Below, in pieces: positions 5,138 to 58,323 of a stretch of 64,000 bases of DNA. The notes beneath the pieces are model-generated. The model was not told the DNA's origin, searched no databases, and saw only the letters and a list, made by a program, of their open reading frames with translations. The position numbers were made by a program, and so were the translations under genes. Source of the stretch: Prevotella sp. GTDB taxonomy: Bacteria; Bacteroidota; Bacteroidia; Bacteroidales; Bacteroidaceae. The stretch covers positions 1 through 64,000 of the forward strand of contig JAFRYZ010000033.1 of assembly GCA_017442825.1 (NCBI GenBank), written 5' to 3'. Position 1 is the first letter of the stretch, and the number at the start of each line of letters is the position of its first letter.

Positions 5138-5678
5138 CGACAAACTGGAAGACCTCCTCAAGCAACTGTACGCTCAGGAGGAAGAGACCATAGACACCTC
5201 GGAATTCATCGACGAAGAGTGGCAAAAGTTCGAGGCCAGGCACTTCGCCCCCAAGCGCAAGTCGTGGGGATGGATGCAGATAGCAGCAGCAATCGTCGGT
5301 GTGCTCATGCTCTCGGGTATTGCCTATGCAGCCATCAGCATTGTGCACAGAGGCCATGCCGACGAGGTGGAGGCACCGGTAGAGCAGACGATTGCCGCAA
5401 AACCGAGCCAGGAAATCCATGAAACTCCGATTGCCAGGCAGAAGGAGAGTGCCGACTCTATCCGCATTTTCACCGATATGCCGCTCGACGAGCTGGTGGG
5501 CGAACTCGCTACATATTATAATAAGGTGGCGGATATACATGACGCAAAAGCCCACGACGTGCGCCTCTATTACAAATGGAACCGTAACAGCCGCGCAGAA
5601 GACGTCATTGGCGAGCTGAACCACTTCGACCATGTGAACCTCTCCATAGAGAACGATAAACTGATTGTGAATCCCTGA
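5127..5678 (+). CDS. Short FecR-like anti-sigma protein with C-terminal DUF4974-like domain
   Basis: A 183-aa inner-membrane protein. The cytoplasmic N terminus (1-48) would bind the sigma factor. A single TM helix spans residues 49-71. The C-terminal part (about 114-183: MPLDELVGELATYY, YYKWNRNSRAEDVIGELNHF, LSIENDKLIVNP) matches the domain that ends FecR anti-sigma factors in Bacteroidetes and touches the receptor STN domain. The FecR beta-domain normally between TM and C terminus (100 or more residues) is missing and replaced by a charged linker (72-112). It is therefore a compact variant, translationally coupled to the sigma gene by an 11-bp overlap. Confidence 0.8.
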   Translation: MTSNDKLEDLLKQLYAQEEETIDTSEFIDEEWQKFEARHFAPKRKSWGWMQIAAAIVGVLMLSGIAYAAISIVHRGHADEVEAPVEQTIAAKPSQEIHETPIARQKESADSIRIFTDMPLDELVGELATYYNKVADIHDAKAHDVRLYYKWNRNSRAEDVIGELNHFDHVNLSIENDKLIVNP

Positions 5679-16671: not shown

Positions 16672-16715
16672 TGTCGTCAATATACATTTATCCATCAAGT
16701 GTGCTTCTTTCGTAA

Positions 16716-16780
16716 AGTAAAACATTACTTTTTACTAAGTAAAACATTACTTTTTACCGAGTAAAACATTACTTTTTACT
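16716..16780. repeat. 22-bp-period dyad array, three units
   Basis: Three near-identical units start at 16716, 16738 and 16760, exactly 22 bp apart. Each has AGTAAAA, a 6-bp core CATTAC, then TTTTTACT (last base C in unit 2), so each is itself a dyad. The junction between units (TTTTTACT/AAGTAAAA) is a second dyad. It lies 45 bp past the tamL stop, between convergent tamL and the AAA+ gene. The remainder of this gap (16781-16879) shows only a 25-codon frame of doubtful value. Confidence 0.93.
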
Positions 16781-31803: not shown

Positions 31804-31860
31804 CTTGTTCTGAAATCTAATCTTCTTCTCTCGCACCTACCTTTTTATCAAGTAACGTCC

Positions 31861-31963
31861 TTTTACCTCCCTTTTTCCTCCCCTTTACCTCCCTTTTACC
31901 TCCCCTTTACCTCCCTTTTACCTCCCCTTTAACTCCCCTTTAACTCCCTTTTAACTCCCCTTC
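31861..31963. repeat. Pyrimidine-rich tandem array beside purD, 22-bp higher-order period
   Basis: Nine or so alternating 10-12-bp units of the form TTTTACCTCCC(C). Two consecutive 22-bp super-units (31884-31905 and 31906-31927) are identical, each a 10-bp plus a 12-bp unit. Later units change ACC to AAC. It directly abuts the purD stop codon (31966). On the transcribed minus strand it is purine-rich with GGGG/GGG runs every 10-12 bases, so G-quadruplex formation is possible. Confidence 0.9.
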
Positions 31964-31965
31964 CT

Positions 31966-33234
31966 CTACAAATCCTTCCCTATATCTCTTCTGAAGTATT
32001 TGTCAGTAAAGTTAATTTTCTGAGCTTCTTTAAACGATTTGGCAAGCGCTTCCTCCTTATCCTTACCATAGGAAGAAACGGCAATGACGCGTCCGCCGTT
32101 GGTGACGACAGCTCCGTCTTTCATTGCTGTCCCACTGTGGAAGACAATGCTCCCCTCAACCTGGTCAATGCCGCTGATGGCATAACCCTTTTGGTAGGCT
32201 TCCGGATAACCGCCGCTGACCAACATCACGCAGACGGCAGCGCGCTCGTCAAACACGACGTTTCGTTTGTCGAGGTCGCCGTTGGCAACACCCTCAAACA
32301 AATCCACGATGTCGCTCTTCAGGCGCAACATCACGCTCTCTGTCTCTGGGTCGCCCATTCTGCAGTTATATTCAATCACCATCGGTTCGCCCTTCACGTT
32401 GATGAGTCCGAAGAAAATGAAGCCTTTGTAGTCGATACCTTCCGCTGCCAGACCTTCCACCGTCGGACGTATGATGCGGTCTTCCACCTTCTGCATCCAC
32501 TCCTTGGTGGCAAAAGGTACAGGAGTCACACTACCCATGCCGCCCGTGTTCAGTCCGGTGTCGCCTTCGCCAATACGCTTGTAGTCCTTGGCTTCCGGCA
32601 GAATCTGATAGTGCTTGCCGTCCGTCAGCACGAACACCGAACACTCGATACCGCTGAGGAACTCCTCGATGACCACCTGCGAACTGGCATTGCCGAACAT
32701 GCCGCCCAGCATCTCGCGCAGTTCTTTTTTAGCCTCGTCGAGGGTAGGCAGGATGAGCACGCCCTTGCCGGCACATAGTCCGTCAGCTTTCAGTACGTAA
32801 GGAGGCTGCAGGGTTTCCAGAAAGGCAATACCGTCCTCCACATGCTCACCGTCGAATGTCTGGTAGCGGGCAGTGGGGATGTCGTGACGCTGCATGAAAG
32901 CCTTGGCAAAGTCCTTGCTGCCTTCCAGCACGGCACCGGCTTTCGACGGACCGATGACGGGGATGTCCTTTGTCCGTTCGTCGCTCTTGAAGTCGTCGTA
33001 GATACCTTTCACCAGTGGGTCTTCCGGTCCTACCACCACCATGTCAATGCCTTTGTCTGCGGCAAACGCCTTCAGCGCGTCGAAGTCGTCAGCCTTTATC
33101 GCCACGTTCTCGCCGCATGCCGACGTACCGGCATTACCTGGTGCAATGTACAATTTCTCTACCTTTTCACTTTGTGCAATCTTCCAAGCCAGCGCATGTT
33201 CTCTGCCACCGCTTCCTAACAATAGAATCTTCAT
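31966..33234 (-). CDS. purD: Phosphoribosylamine-glycine ligase PurD
   Basis: 422 aa from ATG 33234 ([14 protein letters not shown], the usual family start); ATG 33246 would add four residues. It catalyses the second step of purine biosynthesis, joining glycine to 5-phosphoribosylamine with ATP. The N domain has [12 protein letters not shown], the ATP-grasp part has [11 protein letters not shown], and the C-terminal signature [12 protein letters not shown] gives metal and phosphate ligands. Full length. A TAATTTTGC box (33262-33270) is its probable promoter. The gene is followed directly by the tandem array at 31861-31963. Confidence 0.96.
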
Positions 33235-33261
33235 TCCTTTTATCATTTTCTTTTTTCAGCT

Positions 33262-37380: not shown

Positions 37381-37839
37381 ATGAACAAACCAGATATAAA
37401 AGACATCAAGTCGAAAATAGAGAAGAAAGTAGATCCGCAACATCAAGGATTCTTCCATACCCGCACGTTCCACATCCTGCTCTGTGTGGGCATTGTACTC
37501 ATCATCCTCATCCTCTACAACTGCGTGATACGTACCGACAAGGTTGCCGTCACGCCCGAACAGGAAGAACTCAACCAGCAACACGAGTCCATGTACCTCG
37601 ATACCTTCGATGTTGTCGGCGACTATCTCTTCCCACCGCTCAAGACCAGCAAGGAAGACCAGACGACGGAAGCCGAAAAAACCGACAAACAACAGGACAA
37701 GAGCGAGGCGAAAGTCTCTAAGCCAGCCGATTCAGAGGAAGACATCATCGAGTCGGCAGACATCAGCTCCGACCCTACACCCGCTCCGCCGCCACCCCCA
37801 GTAGCACCGGCACCAACAGTTGAAACCATCGAACAATAA
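37381..37839 (+). CDS. Small single-pass membrane protein, unknown function
   Basis: 152 aa: a charged cytoplasmic N terminus (1-26), one TM helix at about 29-47 (HILLCVGIVLIILILYNCVI), then an acidic, low-complexity extracytoplasmic region rich in Lys, Glu and Asp, ending in a proline stretch (PTPAPPPPPVAPAP). No domain is recognised. The shape resembles a periplasm-spanning linker, but there is no TonB or peptidoglycan-binding motif. It lies 42 bp after the nuclease gene and is closed by a strong terminator. Confidence 0.7.
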   Translation: MNKPDIKDIKSKIEKKVDPQHQGFFHTRTFHILLCVGIVLIILILYNCVIRTDKVAVTPEQEELNQQHESMYLDTFDVVGDYLFPPLKTSKEDQTTEAEKTDKQQDKSEAKVSKPADSEEDIIESADISSDPTPAPPPPPVAPAPTVETIEQ

Positions 37840-37842
37840 TAA

Positions 37843-37874
37843 AACTCTGCGGCTTGCCGCAGAGTTCTTTTTTT
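37843..37874 (+). terminator. Rho-independent terminator
   Basis: AACTCTGCGGC (37843-37853) pairs with GCCGCAGAGTT (37856-37866), followed by CTTTTTTTT. It ends the nuclease/152-aa transcript just before the dyad array. Confidence 0.92.
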
Positions 37875-37887
37875 TGTCGAAGCTGGT

Positions 37888-38055
37888 ACCACGTCGTGGT
37901 CGGGGCATGACCATTTTTTGGTCGGTGTGCGACCATGTTTTGGAATTCCGGAGACCACACTTTGGTCGGGAGGCTACCAACGCATGGTATGAGGACTACC
38001 AACGCTTGGTATGAGGAATACCAAGTATTTGGTACGAGGGCTACCAAGCGTTGGT
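37888..38055. repeat. 22-bp-period dyad array, eight units
   Basis: Eight 13-14-bp imperfect palindromes of the form ACCAnnnnnTGGT begin at 37888, 37910, 37932, 37954, 37976, 37998, 38020 and 38043. They are therefore spaced exactly 22 bp (once 23). Examples are ACCACGTCGTGGT and ACCAACGCTTGGT. The 9-bp spacers vary but several match ATGAGGACT or ACGAGGGCT. A half site TTTTGGT follows at 38060-38066. No ORF, repeat-associated gene or cas gene accompanies it. Confidence 0.95.
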
Positions 38056-38239
38056 CAGATTTTGGTACGAACAGAAATGATTCAGAAATGATTCCAATTA
38101 TGCCCATTTTTTTCGGTAAAAGGCAGGAAAGTAAGAATTATCTGCCATATCTGCCACCCATCTGCCACCCGTAACCACCTGAAAATCAACGAGTGTTGCA
38201 GATACGGCAGATATTTAAGCAAATAAAAAAAACAGGAGG

Positions 38240-38660
38240 TTGTGCTCACACGGATAATTCCGTCCAATCGTTTAAATCGCCCGCAGGGCTTGTTAGCTGA
38301 AGGTCTAAAGTCTAAGGTCTAAGGTATTGTTGTTCTATTTCTAAGGAGTCAAGGAGTCGAGGAGTTCTCCTCGCTTCGCTTGTCGAAGTAATCGACGAAG
38401 TCGCTTCGCTCGTCGAAGAAATCATCCAAATCTATCCAAATCTTTCAAATTTACTGTTATGATTTGTAGAATTTGTAGTGATTTGTAAGATTTCTCGCCC
38501 AGGGCGACTGAATTATTTTCCGTGCTTTTCGTGTTTTCCGTTGTTATTCTATGGAGTCAAGGAGTTCTCCTCGCTTCGCTTGTCGAAGTAACCGCGCAGC
38601 GCTTTGCTTGCAAAGAATTGTCAATTAAATCAGTGTCTATCTGTGGTTTGAAAAAGTCCG
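38240..38660. repeat. Gene-free intergenic repeat mosaic
   Basis: No gene is seen between the array and 38664. Recognisable modules are the TCCGTCCAATCGTTT/ATCGCCCGCAGGGC pair (also 45246-45278), AAGGTCTAAGGTCTAAGG, GGAGTTCTCCTCGCTTCGCTTGTCGAAG (two copies here, also 39655-39682 and reversed near 56660-56755), and the TCTCGCCCAGGGCGACTGAA block with TTTGTAAGATT (reversed near 56580 and 57840). CTGCCACCC also repeats near 38150-38170. Confidence 0.75.
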
Positions 38661-38663
38661 TGT

Positions 38664-38900
38664 CTAAACGACTTTAGCTGTTTTTATTTCATTCTGTAAA
38701 AAGGAATATACATAACCGGCACTTTGATAATATAGACCTGTGGCATCATCTTGCAGTCGGGTGAAAGTGTCGGAGGTGTATAAAACGTCCAATGCTTCTT
38801 GTGGGGAATAATGAAAATCATCAACGAGTGCTTCTGTGAGTTCAATGCACAAGTCGTCTTTCATAAGTTGGATTTGTTCGGTTGTTAGTTTCTTTTTCAT
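38664..38900 (-). CDS. Small protein, third gene of a DUF3791/DUF3990-type cassette
   Basis: 78 aa, acidic and helical (LTTEQIQLMKDDLCIELTEALVDDF, SPQEALDVLYTSDTFTRLQD), ending with AGYVYSFLQNEI. It resembles the small helical proteins that accompany DUF3990 proteins in Bacteroidetes and Firmicutes. Its ATG overlaps the stop of the upstream DUF3990 remnant (TGA/ATG), so it is translationally coupled. An antitoxin-like role is inferred only from the cassette layout. Confidence 0.7.
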   Translation of the reverse strand: MKKKLTTEQIQLMKDDLCIELTEALVDDFHYSPQEALDVLYTSDTFTRLQDDATGLYYQSAGYVYSFLQNEIKTAKVV

Positions 38901-39115
38901 AATCGTTTCAATAACTGTAGTGCCTGATCTGAACCAAAATAGTATTGGAATGTTATGCCTTTTGCATATTTTAATTCCTCTACAAGACGAGACAGAGAGA
39001 TTACCCCGCCTTCATAACGTCGCAACTGATCGCATCCAAAGTCCTTAAAGGGTTTAGAATGTACTAAATCTGGGACTTCTATTTTGGTATTTGAACCATG
39101 ATACAATTTCATCAT
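38897..39115 (-). pseudogene. DUF3990 (ADP-ribosyltransferase-like) gene with internal deletion
   Basis: 72 aa. The start KLYHGSNTKIEVPDLVHSKPFKDFG is the canonical DUF3990 N terminus and the end LVEELKYAKGITFQYYFGSDQALQLLKRL matches its C terminus, but the normal protein is roughly 150-170 aa. About 80-100 central residues, including the region after DFG that would complete the ADP-ribosyltransferase-like fold, are missing without a frame break. It is presumably inactive. It is coupled by 4-bp overlaps to genes on both sides. Confidence 0.7.
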
Positions 39116-39339
39116 CGTAGTGCACCTCCATGATTTGCACAGACTTGGGCCAAAGTTTCAACAGTATCGGGGAAAGACTGAGTGTGTAAAACGGCATAGT
39201 GGTTGCGAAGATGGTCAAGCCCCTTGAACCGTTTCAAATAGGCATAGGCCTGGCGGGGACAAACTCCAAAAAATTTGGAGAATTCGCTAATGAGTGCTAT
39301 CGTGAATCCTATTATATTTTTATCTTCTCTTGACATCAT
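39112..39339 (-). CDS. DUF3791-family small protein
   Basis: 75 aa from ATG 39339, preceded by AAAAGGAAAA; a longer TTG frame is unlikely. The pattern ISEFSKFFGVCPRQAYAYLKRFKGLDHLRNHYAVLHTQ matches DUF3791, a helical protein encoded next to DUF3990 proteins. Stop and next start overlap (ATGA). It is the probable partner or antitoxin of the DUF3990 protein, now truncated. Confidence 0.8.
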   Translation of the reverse strand: MMSREDKNIIGFTIALISEFSKFFGVCPRQAYAYLKRFKGLDHLRNHYAVLHTQSFPDTVETLAQVCANHGGALR

Positions 39340-39353
39340 TTTTCCTTTTAAGT

Positions 39354-39455
39354 TCAAATCTTTGTATAGAAAGTTTCTTTGGTCATCAGCGCTTCGTCAT
39401 CAGCGCTTACTCCCACGGCACGGTAGAGTTCAGTGTTCAATTGTGTTGCTGTCAT
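39354..39455 (-). CDS. Leader small ORF of the DUF3791/DUF3990 cassette
   Basis: A 33-aa frame, MTATQLNTELYRAVGVSADDEA followed by LMTKETFYTKI. It resembles the N and C termini of a short conserved Bacteroidales protein that opens such cassettes, with its middle lost; a GCGCTTCGTCATCAGCGC duplication sits at the join. It has a promoter box (39483-39491) and ends 15 bp before the DUF3791 gene. Either a functional micro-protein or a remnant. Confidence 0.5.
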   Translation of the reverse strand: MTATQLNTELYRAVGVSADDEALMTKETFYTKI

Positions 39456-57628: not shown

Positions 57629-58140
57629 CACGGAAACATAGCCTGACGGCTAATTGACAATTGATAATTGACAATTGACAATAAAACAACGGTAACCGCG
57701 TAGCGCTTTTATCGCTCGAACTTGTTCGCTTATATGAGCAAAGCGAGTCTTAAGAAGGCGACAGCCGACTAAAAGAAAACACGGAAAAGCCTTTGACTAA
57801 CAAAACAACGGAACGCACGGAACGCACGGAAAATAATTCAGTCGCCCTAGGGCGAGAAATCTTACAAATCTGTACAAATCCAACAAATCAGTGTGGATAT
57901 ACAGGTTGATAGATTTGGATGATGTCTTCGACGAGCGAAGCGAGGAGAACTCCTTAACTCCTTGGAAATAAAACAACGGAAATCACGGTAACCGCGCAGC
58001 GCTTTTATCGCTCGAACTTGTTCGCTTATATGAGCAAAGCGAGTCTTAAGAAAGGCGACAGCCGACTAAAAGAAAGCACGGAAAAGAGTCAACAGAAAGT
58101 ATAACTAAGTATTAACCAAAGTCAACCACAACTACAAATA
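57629..58140. repeat. Gene-free intergenic repeat mosaic with two near-identical 100-bp blocks
   Basis: 57691-57790 and 57987-58086 are almost the same: GGTAACCGCG(T/C)AGCGCTTTTA, CGCTCGAACTTGTTCGCTTA, TGAGCAAAGCGAGTCTTAAG, GCGACAGCCGACTAAAAGAA. Between them is the GTCGCCCTAGGGCGAGAAAT block and a GCGAAGCGAGGAGAACTCC copy. No gene is seen. Confidence 0.85.
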
Positions 58141-58191
58141 AGACTCAAAATAGTCAACTAAAATCGTTAAACTACAGCCGAAGTTTGATTG

Positions 58192-58323
58192 CGAAAATAT
58201 CGGAAAACCCTTGCGGAGGCGTCGGAGAAAGATAACGAAGCCTCCGGAAGAAGTTTACGAAGCCTCCGGAGAAAGTGTCCGAAGCCTCTGGAGAAAGTTT
58301 ACGAAGCCTCCGGAAGGAGTTCA
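58192..58323. repeat. 22-bp-period array, six units
   Basis: Units start at 58192, 58214, 58236, 58258, 58280 and 58302, exactly 22 bp apart. The last four share CGAAGCCTCCGGA plus AGAAGTTTA-like ends; the core CTCCGGAG is an 8-bp palindrome in the best unit. The first two are diverged (CGAAAATATCGGAAAA, CGGAGGCGTCGGAGAAAG), suggesting growth or decay from one end. It ends 17 bp before the xth stop codon (58341) and lies 3' of that gene. Confidence 0.93.

Follow-up and report, generated by a model that had tools for sequence, protein, structure and literature searches.

The window analyzed here is a 64,000-nt stretch of Prevotella DNA, and the array under study lies in an 824-bp gap of this stretch (37840-38663) that separates two convergent ORFs. 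The ORF on the left (37381-37839, + strand) has no Pfam or NCBIfam match, and the stop end of the ORF on the right (38664-38900, - strand) is at position 38664. Farther to the right, at 38897-39357 on the minus strand, the neighbouring small ORFs match DUF3990 (first part only) and DUF3791. A hairpin resembling an intrinsic terminator, followed by a T run, is present directly upstream of the array (37843-37875, + strand; stem at 37843-37866), in agreement with an earlier note on this DNA, which placed the array right after a terminator.

The array, to which no strand is assigned, extends from 37887 to 38056 and is composed of eight dyads of the pattern [T/G]ACCA-N5-TGGT[A/C]. Counted from the first base of TACCA or GACCA, these units are TACCACGTCGTGGTC (37887-37901), GACCATTTTTTGGTC (37909-37923), GACCATGTTTTGGAA (37931-37945), GACCACACTTTGGTC (37953-37967), TACCAACGCATGGTA (37975-37989), TACCAACGCTTGGTA (37997-38011), TACCAAGTATTTGGTA (38019-38034) and TACCAAGCGTTGGTC (38042-38056). 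The step from one start to the next is 22 bp in six cases and 23 bp in one, the latter because the loop of unit 7 is 6 nt long. Six of the eight units contain ACCA-N5-TGGT, the right arm of unit 3 is imperfect and ends in TGGA, and the dyad extends one base further on each side, giving TACCA..TGGTA or GACCA..TGGTC. These positions bear out the description of eight imperfect palindromes at a spacing of 22 bp (once 23 bp) that had been given before. A pattern made of two units, allowing up to two mismatches, matched the window seven times (matches may overlap); dinucleotide shuffles gave 0.05 matches each on average.

Four bases past the last unit a border half-site, TTTTGGTAC (38060-38068, no strand assigned), was recognized by eye, and the homologous arrays L011, L012, L013 and L015 have at their border the reverse complement of this half-site, GTACCAAAA, or a near variant (also by eye). 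A second dispersed element, in which ATCTGCCACCC repeats lie about 11 bp apart together with an inverted GGCAGAT, is located at 38139-38216 (no strand assigned); it has seven matches in the genome of the window, in both orientations, five of which adjoin TACCA arrays (of 12). Elsewhere in the window, at 31859-31959, about nine copies of an 11-bp repeat, CCTTTTACCTC, are present past the stop end of the ORF 31966-33246, and the similar repeat GGGGAGTTAAA follows the TACCA array of L013.

Judged by sequence matches, the TACCA array is a repeat family in its own genome and in many Bacteroidota. The two-unit pattern with at most one mismatch detected 12 arrays in the 2.31-Mb genome of the window, in which a reversed control pattern had no matches. 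A stricter 20-base pattern, again with at most one mismatch, matched three of 40 genomes, own included, and the exact 20-base pattern was found in at least 117 stretches of species genomes, where about 0.2 would be expected by chance (257 Gb / 4^20). All matches listed are Bacteroidota by record title, and they include Prevotella, other Prevotellaceae, Bacteroides, Parabacteroides, Xylanibacter, Hoylesella, a Tannerellaceae MAG and Flavobacterium caseinilyticum. Four viral contigs also match the TACCA-array pattern; a blastn search with the array against plasmid and phage collections gave no match. We scanned 132 loci, some of them near-duplicates, and obtained 129 arrays of at least three units, in which 466 of 476 steps are 22 bp and ten are of other lengths; in this count the seed forces one 22-bp step per match, and the permitted step lengths were 21-23 and 43-45. 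Among the 564 distinct units, near-invariance is confined to the ten arm bases, plus a weak extension.

The 22-bp spacing was then surveyed independently of any motif, over periods 16-40, with a 66-base window, a threshold of 56% self-match and short periods removed. Two samples of 400 kb were used: one from contigs C1, C20 and C65 of the own genome, which were already known to hold arrays, and one consisting of the first 400 kb of the one-contig genome G016, which belongs to the same genus and was selected without regard to arrays. In both samples, period 22 accounts for more regions than any other period. In the own sample it occurs in 18 regions, with eight regions at 21 and none at 23; in G016 it occurs in 20, with two at 21 and one at 23. 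The corresponding densities are 45 and 50 regions per Mb. Block-shuffled own sequence yielded no region at any period from 16 to 40, and so 22-bp arrays are commoner than in shuffled sequence, which is the comparison by which the earlier note had wanted its idea to be judged. These numbers count period only, and some of the regions may thus not be true dyad arrays: three of the 18 own regions are 11-bp repeats (L228_11109, L236_10458 and L241_2905), several others are weak, and a strict automatic dyad filter (at least 75% paired) passes only two of 18 own and one of 20 G016 regions. This filter was dropped as too strict for degenerate arms, and the dyads in many regions were read by eye. Smaller samples gave four regions at 22 in G132 (100 kb), two at 22 and two at 21 in G010 (100 kb), and, for relatives at the level of the order, two at 22 in G029 (62 kb) and none at 22 with two at 21 in G031 (100 kb).

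The dyads at this period are of several kinds. The arrays of G016 share another motif, ATTTG-N3-CAAAT with TAC-N3-GTA 11 bp away, and eight aligned arrays of that genome are each part of a dispersed element, about 430 bp long, that has a leader and a tail and whose long matches are 65-72% identical. Within the window, a third family, AGTAA-AACA-TTACT, forms the three-unit array AGTAAAACATTACT at 16715-16780 (22-bp array, no strand assigned), similar units of which are found again in the own stretches L229 and L238, and a further family of the CCGAAGCCTCCGG type forms a 22-bp array at 58223-58314 (no strand assigned) that adjoins an IS end. These comparisons show that unrelated dyad families keep the same 22-bp pitch.

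We also examined whether variation is spread evenly over the units. Two orthologous array loci of Bacteroides clarus and B. propionicigenes, the flanks of which are 89-94% identical, differ at two of 100 arm positions and at 34 of 120 positions in loops and spacers (Fisher p 2e-8); for this count one loop base per pair was set aside to hold the register, and the longer array of the second pair was also shortened by one complete unit, picked by eye. Both flanks were homologous in 11 pair rows, of which two were used to count arm differences and one to compare the number of units; the unused rows comprise two of L086/L122, which are out of register, and six of the coding locus in viral contigs. 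In paralogous array pairs of the own genome the arms likewise differ least. Together with the near-invariant arm bases of the 564 units, these data support the proposal that conservation lies in the arms and the pitch and not in the whole unit. Array length varies as well: at a locus whose flanks are 99-100% identical, Xylanibacter brevis has four units and the MAG RUI122 has six. This one locus pair shows array units that were gained or lost in whole steps.

Such whole-unit gain or loss is what a neutral minisatellite would display, that is, a dyad that arose by chance, was copied by slippage and was then carried along by insertion sequences, having no function and no reader. The many unrelated dyad families, and the many other simple repeats in these intergenic regions, agree with this possibility. 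Against it are the arms, which differ far less than the loops and spacers in the two orthologous pairs, and the excess of period 22 over 21 and 23 in the two 400-kb samples, and we regard it as doubtful.

The earlier note had offered two readings of the array, namely dyads phased on one face of the DNA and stacked RNA hairpins. Several observations bear on the latter, according to which the transcribed array would fold into a row of hairpins that stabilizes or terminates transcripts. Both strands of the array stretch, terminator included, fold far below shuffles (z -5.6 and -9.1), as any palindrome does on both strands, and the array comes after a terminator. In the co-variation analysis, the z-values of which are only indicative because the units are related by descent, the outer arm pair co-changes (z 9), as does the pair just outside it (z 14), and the two sides of the innermost arm pair change singly (z -2.2). 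In the loop, weak co-variation is seen for two pairs (z 4.5 and 3.6); this pairing slightly above expectation would suit an RNA element and is left unexplained by a pure half-site model. If pairing were constrained in the transcript, G-U should be favoured over A-C on the sense strand. In the 28 tandem-gene arrays with deviations, the sense strand has 21 G-U, 25 A-C and 22 other mismatches, with more G-U in eight arrays, more A-C in 15 and a tie in five, and hence no bias. When all arrays are taken together, wobble-type deviations of one and the same array share a strand in 33 cases and are on opposite strands in 30. A search of the window with Rfam yielded only tRNA, with no structured-RNA family reaching the gathering score for the array.

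The position of the arrays relative to transcription gives a mixed picture. Among the 97 pattern-captured arrays with ORFs on both sides, 32 lie in convergent, 16 in divergent and 49 in tandem gaps, and the excess of convergent over divergent gaps would be in line with an RNA role. In the period survey, convergent gaps account for three of 13 classed own regions and for only one of 19 in G016, and a convergent preference is therefore not general. Taken with the absence of a wobble bias, this makes the RNA element quite unlikely, and phased dyads on one DNA face are the better of the two readings.

Most arrays are located outside genes. Of the 129 arrays, 16 are mostly inside an ORF of at least 100 aa and 113 are not, and among the surveyed period-22 regions two of 18 in the own genome and none of 20 in G016 lie inside ORFs. 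The units could in principle be a degraded protein-coding repeat, as the note itself had considered, and three related viral contigs and one genome locus do have the dyads within a short ORF. Given that placement, and given that 22 is not a multiple of 3, this explanation is largely refuted and hardly tenable. The short-ORF loci in question (L139:894-1166, L142 at about 744-802, L140 at about 918-976 and L107 at about 5544-5602) are from viral contigs and one Prevotella MAG; each has three TACCA dyads at 22-bp pitch, and the arms are kept between copies with flanks that are 70-81% identical.

Dyads spaced by two helical turns look operator-like, and the array might thus serve one transcription factor that controls the neighbouring genes. 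The neighbours inspected, which are a small part of all, belong to unrelated families (ClpC-like, pectinesterase, DUF6078, YhcG nuclease, DNA methylase, C_GCAxxG_C_C, GH77, histidine kinase and AAA_28), so that a shared regulon was rejected. Gene orientation is moreover mixed and convergent gaps are common, and an operator array is very unlikely.

A sequence that ends in AGTCAACTAAAATCGTTAAACTACA, or nearly so, adjoins four of the 12 own TACCA arrays, and it also occurs at five loci of other genomes; the TACCA array of the window and seven of the 11 other own TACCA arrays are without it. We assign this sequence to the right end of an IS3-family element because of the rve_3 neighbour at L018 and the full element L177 (genome G103), which has an orfA with an HTH, an orfB with an rve core and TG..CA ends, and whose transposase matches the NCBIfam IS3 family with 204 bits (cut-off 160). 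The same two loci ruled out that the leader is an independent promoter or the end of a MITE. In L177, the full element and its right-hand array are, as seen by eye, enclosed by a long inverted repeat, each arm of which measures about 100 bp (75-173 and 1690-1800). The window contains a truncated right end at 58079-58176 (+ strand), beside the CCGAAGCCTCCGG-type array, and the assembled own contigs keep the transposase only as a C-terminal fragment. The right end is present in 15 of 120 same-genus genomes, own included, and relatives of the transposase, mostly distant, in 24 of the 120, 20 of them with one match.

The dyads that follow the right end differ from genome to genome, and a 22-bp array is the usual neighbour. 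Copies were collected by the end alone, which leaves out L067, L075, L078 and L087, found through their arrays; of the 40 loci obtained, 39 were examined, as L159 has a damaged end and was dropped. An array was called when period 22 was the best lag with at least 53% self-match, a test passed by 14 of 600 background windows. By this definition a 22-bp array follows 30 of the 39 right ends (12 of 12 in the own genome and 18 of 27 in other genomes), a 23-bp array follows those of L186 (G102) and L200 (G095), and seven are followed by neither. The register is also largely constant: in 25 of the 30 cases, where about seven are expected, the distance between the IS end and the best dyad axis is 8-10 bp (mod 11), the misses being L176, L177, L180, L185 and L198. 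The own genome contributes twelve of these 30 ends, and likewise 12 of the 25 in-register copies, which are therefore not independent. These counts show that the IS3-family right end adjoins 22-bp arrays in a mostly fixed register despite unrelated dyads.

This association could arise if the element inserts next to arrays or if it makes them. In the latter case the right end would seed or carry the 22-bp units, and the left part would be lost later. The mostly fixed register with unrelated dyads is compatible with such an origin, and so are the truncated copies: of the 13 right ends of the own genome, eight have lost their far side and retain less than 200 bp, in the extreme case about 19 bp, with the array junction kept (by eye). 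The left ends can be read in the same way, since twelve distinct left-end junctions have, by eye, no clear multi-unit array; about one unit is present at two of them in G084, and perhaps two weak units at L284.

We then rejoined left and right flanks in 39 combinations from two genomes (12 from G084 and 27 from the own genome). One G084 combination, built on a presumed pairing of two contigs, combines a 3-bp match with a lag-22 score of 17 of 22 across the joint, the top score of the 39. The next scores are 14 of 22 (one combination) and 13 of 22 (three), all without the 3-bp match, and the two own combinations that do have a 3-bp match score 9/22 and 7/22; 3-bp matches thus occur in three of the 39 combinations, with about 0.6 expected by chance. 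Furthermore, L012, L013, L015 and the window contain homologous TACCA arrays with the same border and no IS. The restored register of the rejoined G084 junction and these IS-free borders both speak against arrays appended by the IS, an origin that we consider rather unlikely. The single rejoined case, with its presumed contig pairing, is suggestive of, although not proof for, insertion of the IS3 element into, or close to, the border of an array that was already there. At L210 and L212, distant relatives of the IS lie inside genes, and a preference for arrays is therefore not common to the whole IS group; at L204, L215 and L216 a 22-bp array is present at the left end.

The explanation that we favour, and to which we give about an even chance of being right, is that the array is a dispersed non-coding element similar to REP/BIME or BrickBuilt that acts both as a phased docking array for a protein and as a landing site for an IS. 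Palindromic sites set 22 bp, or two helical turns, apart would all be presented on the same side of the DNA. Each 22-bp unit would be bound as double-stranded DNA by a putative dimeric protein, and the bound proteins would line up along one face. The resulting protein assembly, or the phased DNA shape that it makes, may then be the address for the IS3 transposition complex.

Some points count against docking. Five of the 30 axes are off register and seven of the 39 ends have neither a 22- nor a 23-bp array. A genome with more than one dyad family would require either more than one protein or a protein that recognizes shape, and the conservation of the arms could come from conversion between arms instead of from a protein. 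A wider version of the docking explanation, which we put forward only tentatively, would have DNA addresses across the phylum that are set by geometry (dyads every 22 bp), served by rapidly evolving, lineage-specific proteins aligned on one face of the DNA, with new dyad sequences being swapped in by each lineage at constant pitch, and an IS3 element that reads this geometry in selecting the site and register of its insertion. If this is right, much of the intergenic repeat content of Prevotella and its relatives in gut and rumen would form one geometric class, missed by sequence searches because the letters differ from species to species. The arrays would then offer natural experiments on transposase site choice by DNA geometry and a route to a new DNA-binding protein in Bacteroidota. 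If the arrays are bound, a density of 45 and 50 period-22 regions per Mb, as in the two samples, would be sufficient to influence chromosome structure or the insulation of genes.

Finally, we compared the arrays with known systems. The iteron arrays of plasmid origins contain repeats about two helical turns apart, a spacing that the present arrays share. They differ from iterons in that there are many copies per genome, the units are dyads and not oriented iterons, and blastn found none in the plasmid collection. CRISPR arrays have near-identical repeats and unique spacers, whereas here only the arm bases are near-invariant, and both the loops and the 7-bp spacers vary.

The nearest relative in kind that we found is BrickBuilt of Porphyromonas gingivalis, a dispersed intergenic minisatellite MITE with 23-nt imperfect repeats, a leader and a tail, present in 19 copies in ATCC 33277 and with a repeat number that varies between strains (PMC4596501). 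It is reported from P. gingivalis and P. gulae, has IS5-like terminal repeats and a leader and tail that are lost from their far ends, and no element was bisected by a full-length transposable element (PMC4596501). The arrays resemble BrickBuilt in being dispersed intergenic imperfect short tandem repeats of Bacteroidota with varying repeat number and with loss of leader and tail from the far end, and the G016 elements also have a leader, an array and a tail; at L186 and L200 even the array period, 23 bp, is that of the BrickBuilt unit. They differ from it by the 22-bp unit, by the large number of dyad families, which are spread over several Bacteroidota families, and by an IS3-family end that abuts the arrays in register. 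No leader or tail with terminal inverted repeats was recognized for the window array. Among the open-licence papers listed, titles and abstract openings contained no description of 22-bp dyad arrays in Prevotella; the earlier statement that no element of this form has been named in Bacteroidetes is to be qualified by BrickBuilt (PMC4596501).

REP/BIME palindromes are reported to be targets of IS, including the IS3-family elements IS1397, ISKpn1 and ISPsy8 (PMC1525189), to carry in most cases a GTAG or CGTC tag (PMC3733652) and to alternate in orientation within BIMEs (PMC2817692). The arrays are likewise clustered intergenic palindromic repeats in many copies with an IS3-family element adjoining. 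They are unlike REP/BIME in that their dyads are short and follow each other at a 22-bp pitch, and in that a single type of IS adjoins arrays of several unrelated sequences. The column profile of the TACCA family has no fixed tag of the GTAG/CGTC type, the base after TGGTA being G in 20% of the 564 units. Because the 23-nt unit and, in the TACCA family, this tag are missing, the arrays are neither plain REP/BIME nor plain BrickBuilt; they resemble both, yet fail one feature of each, and are a variant of that general kind.
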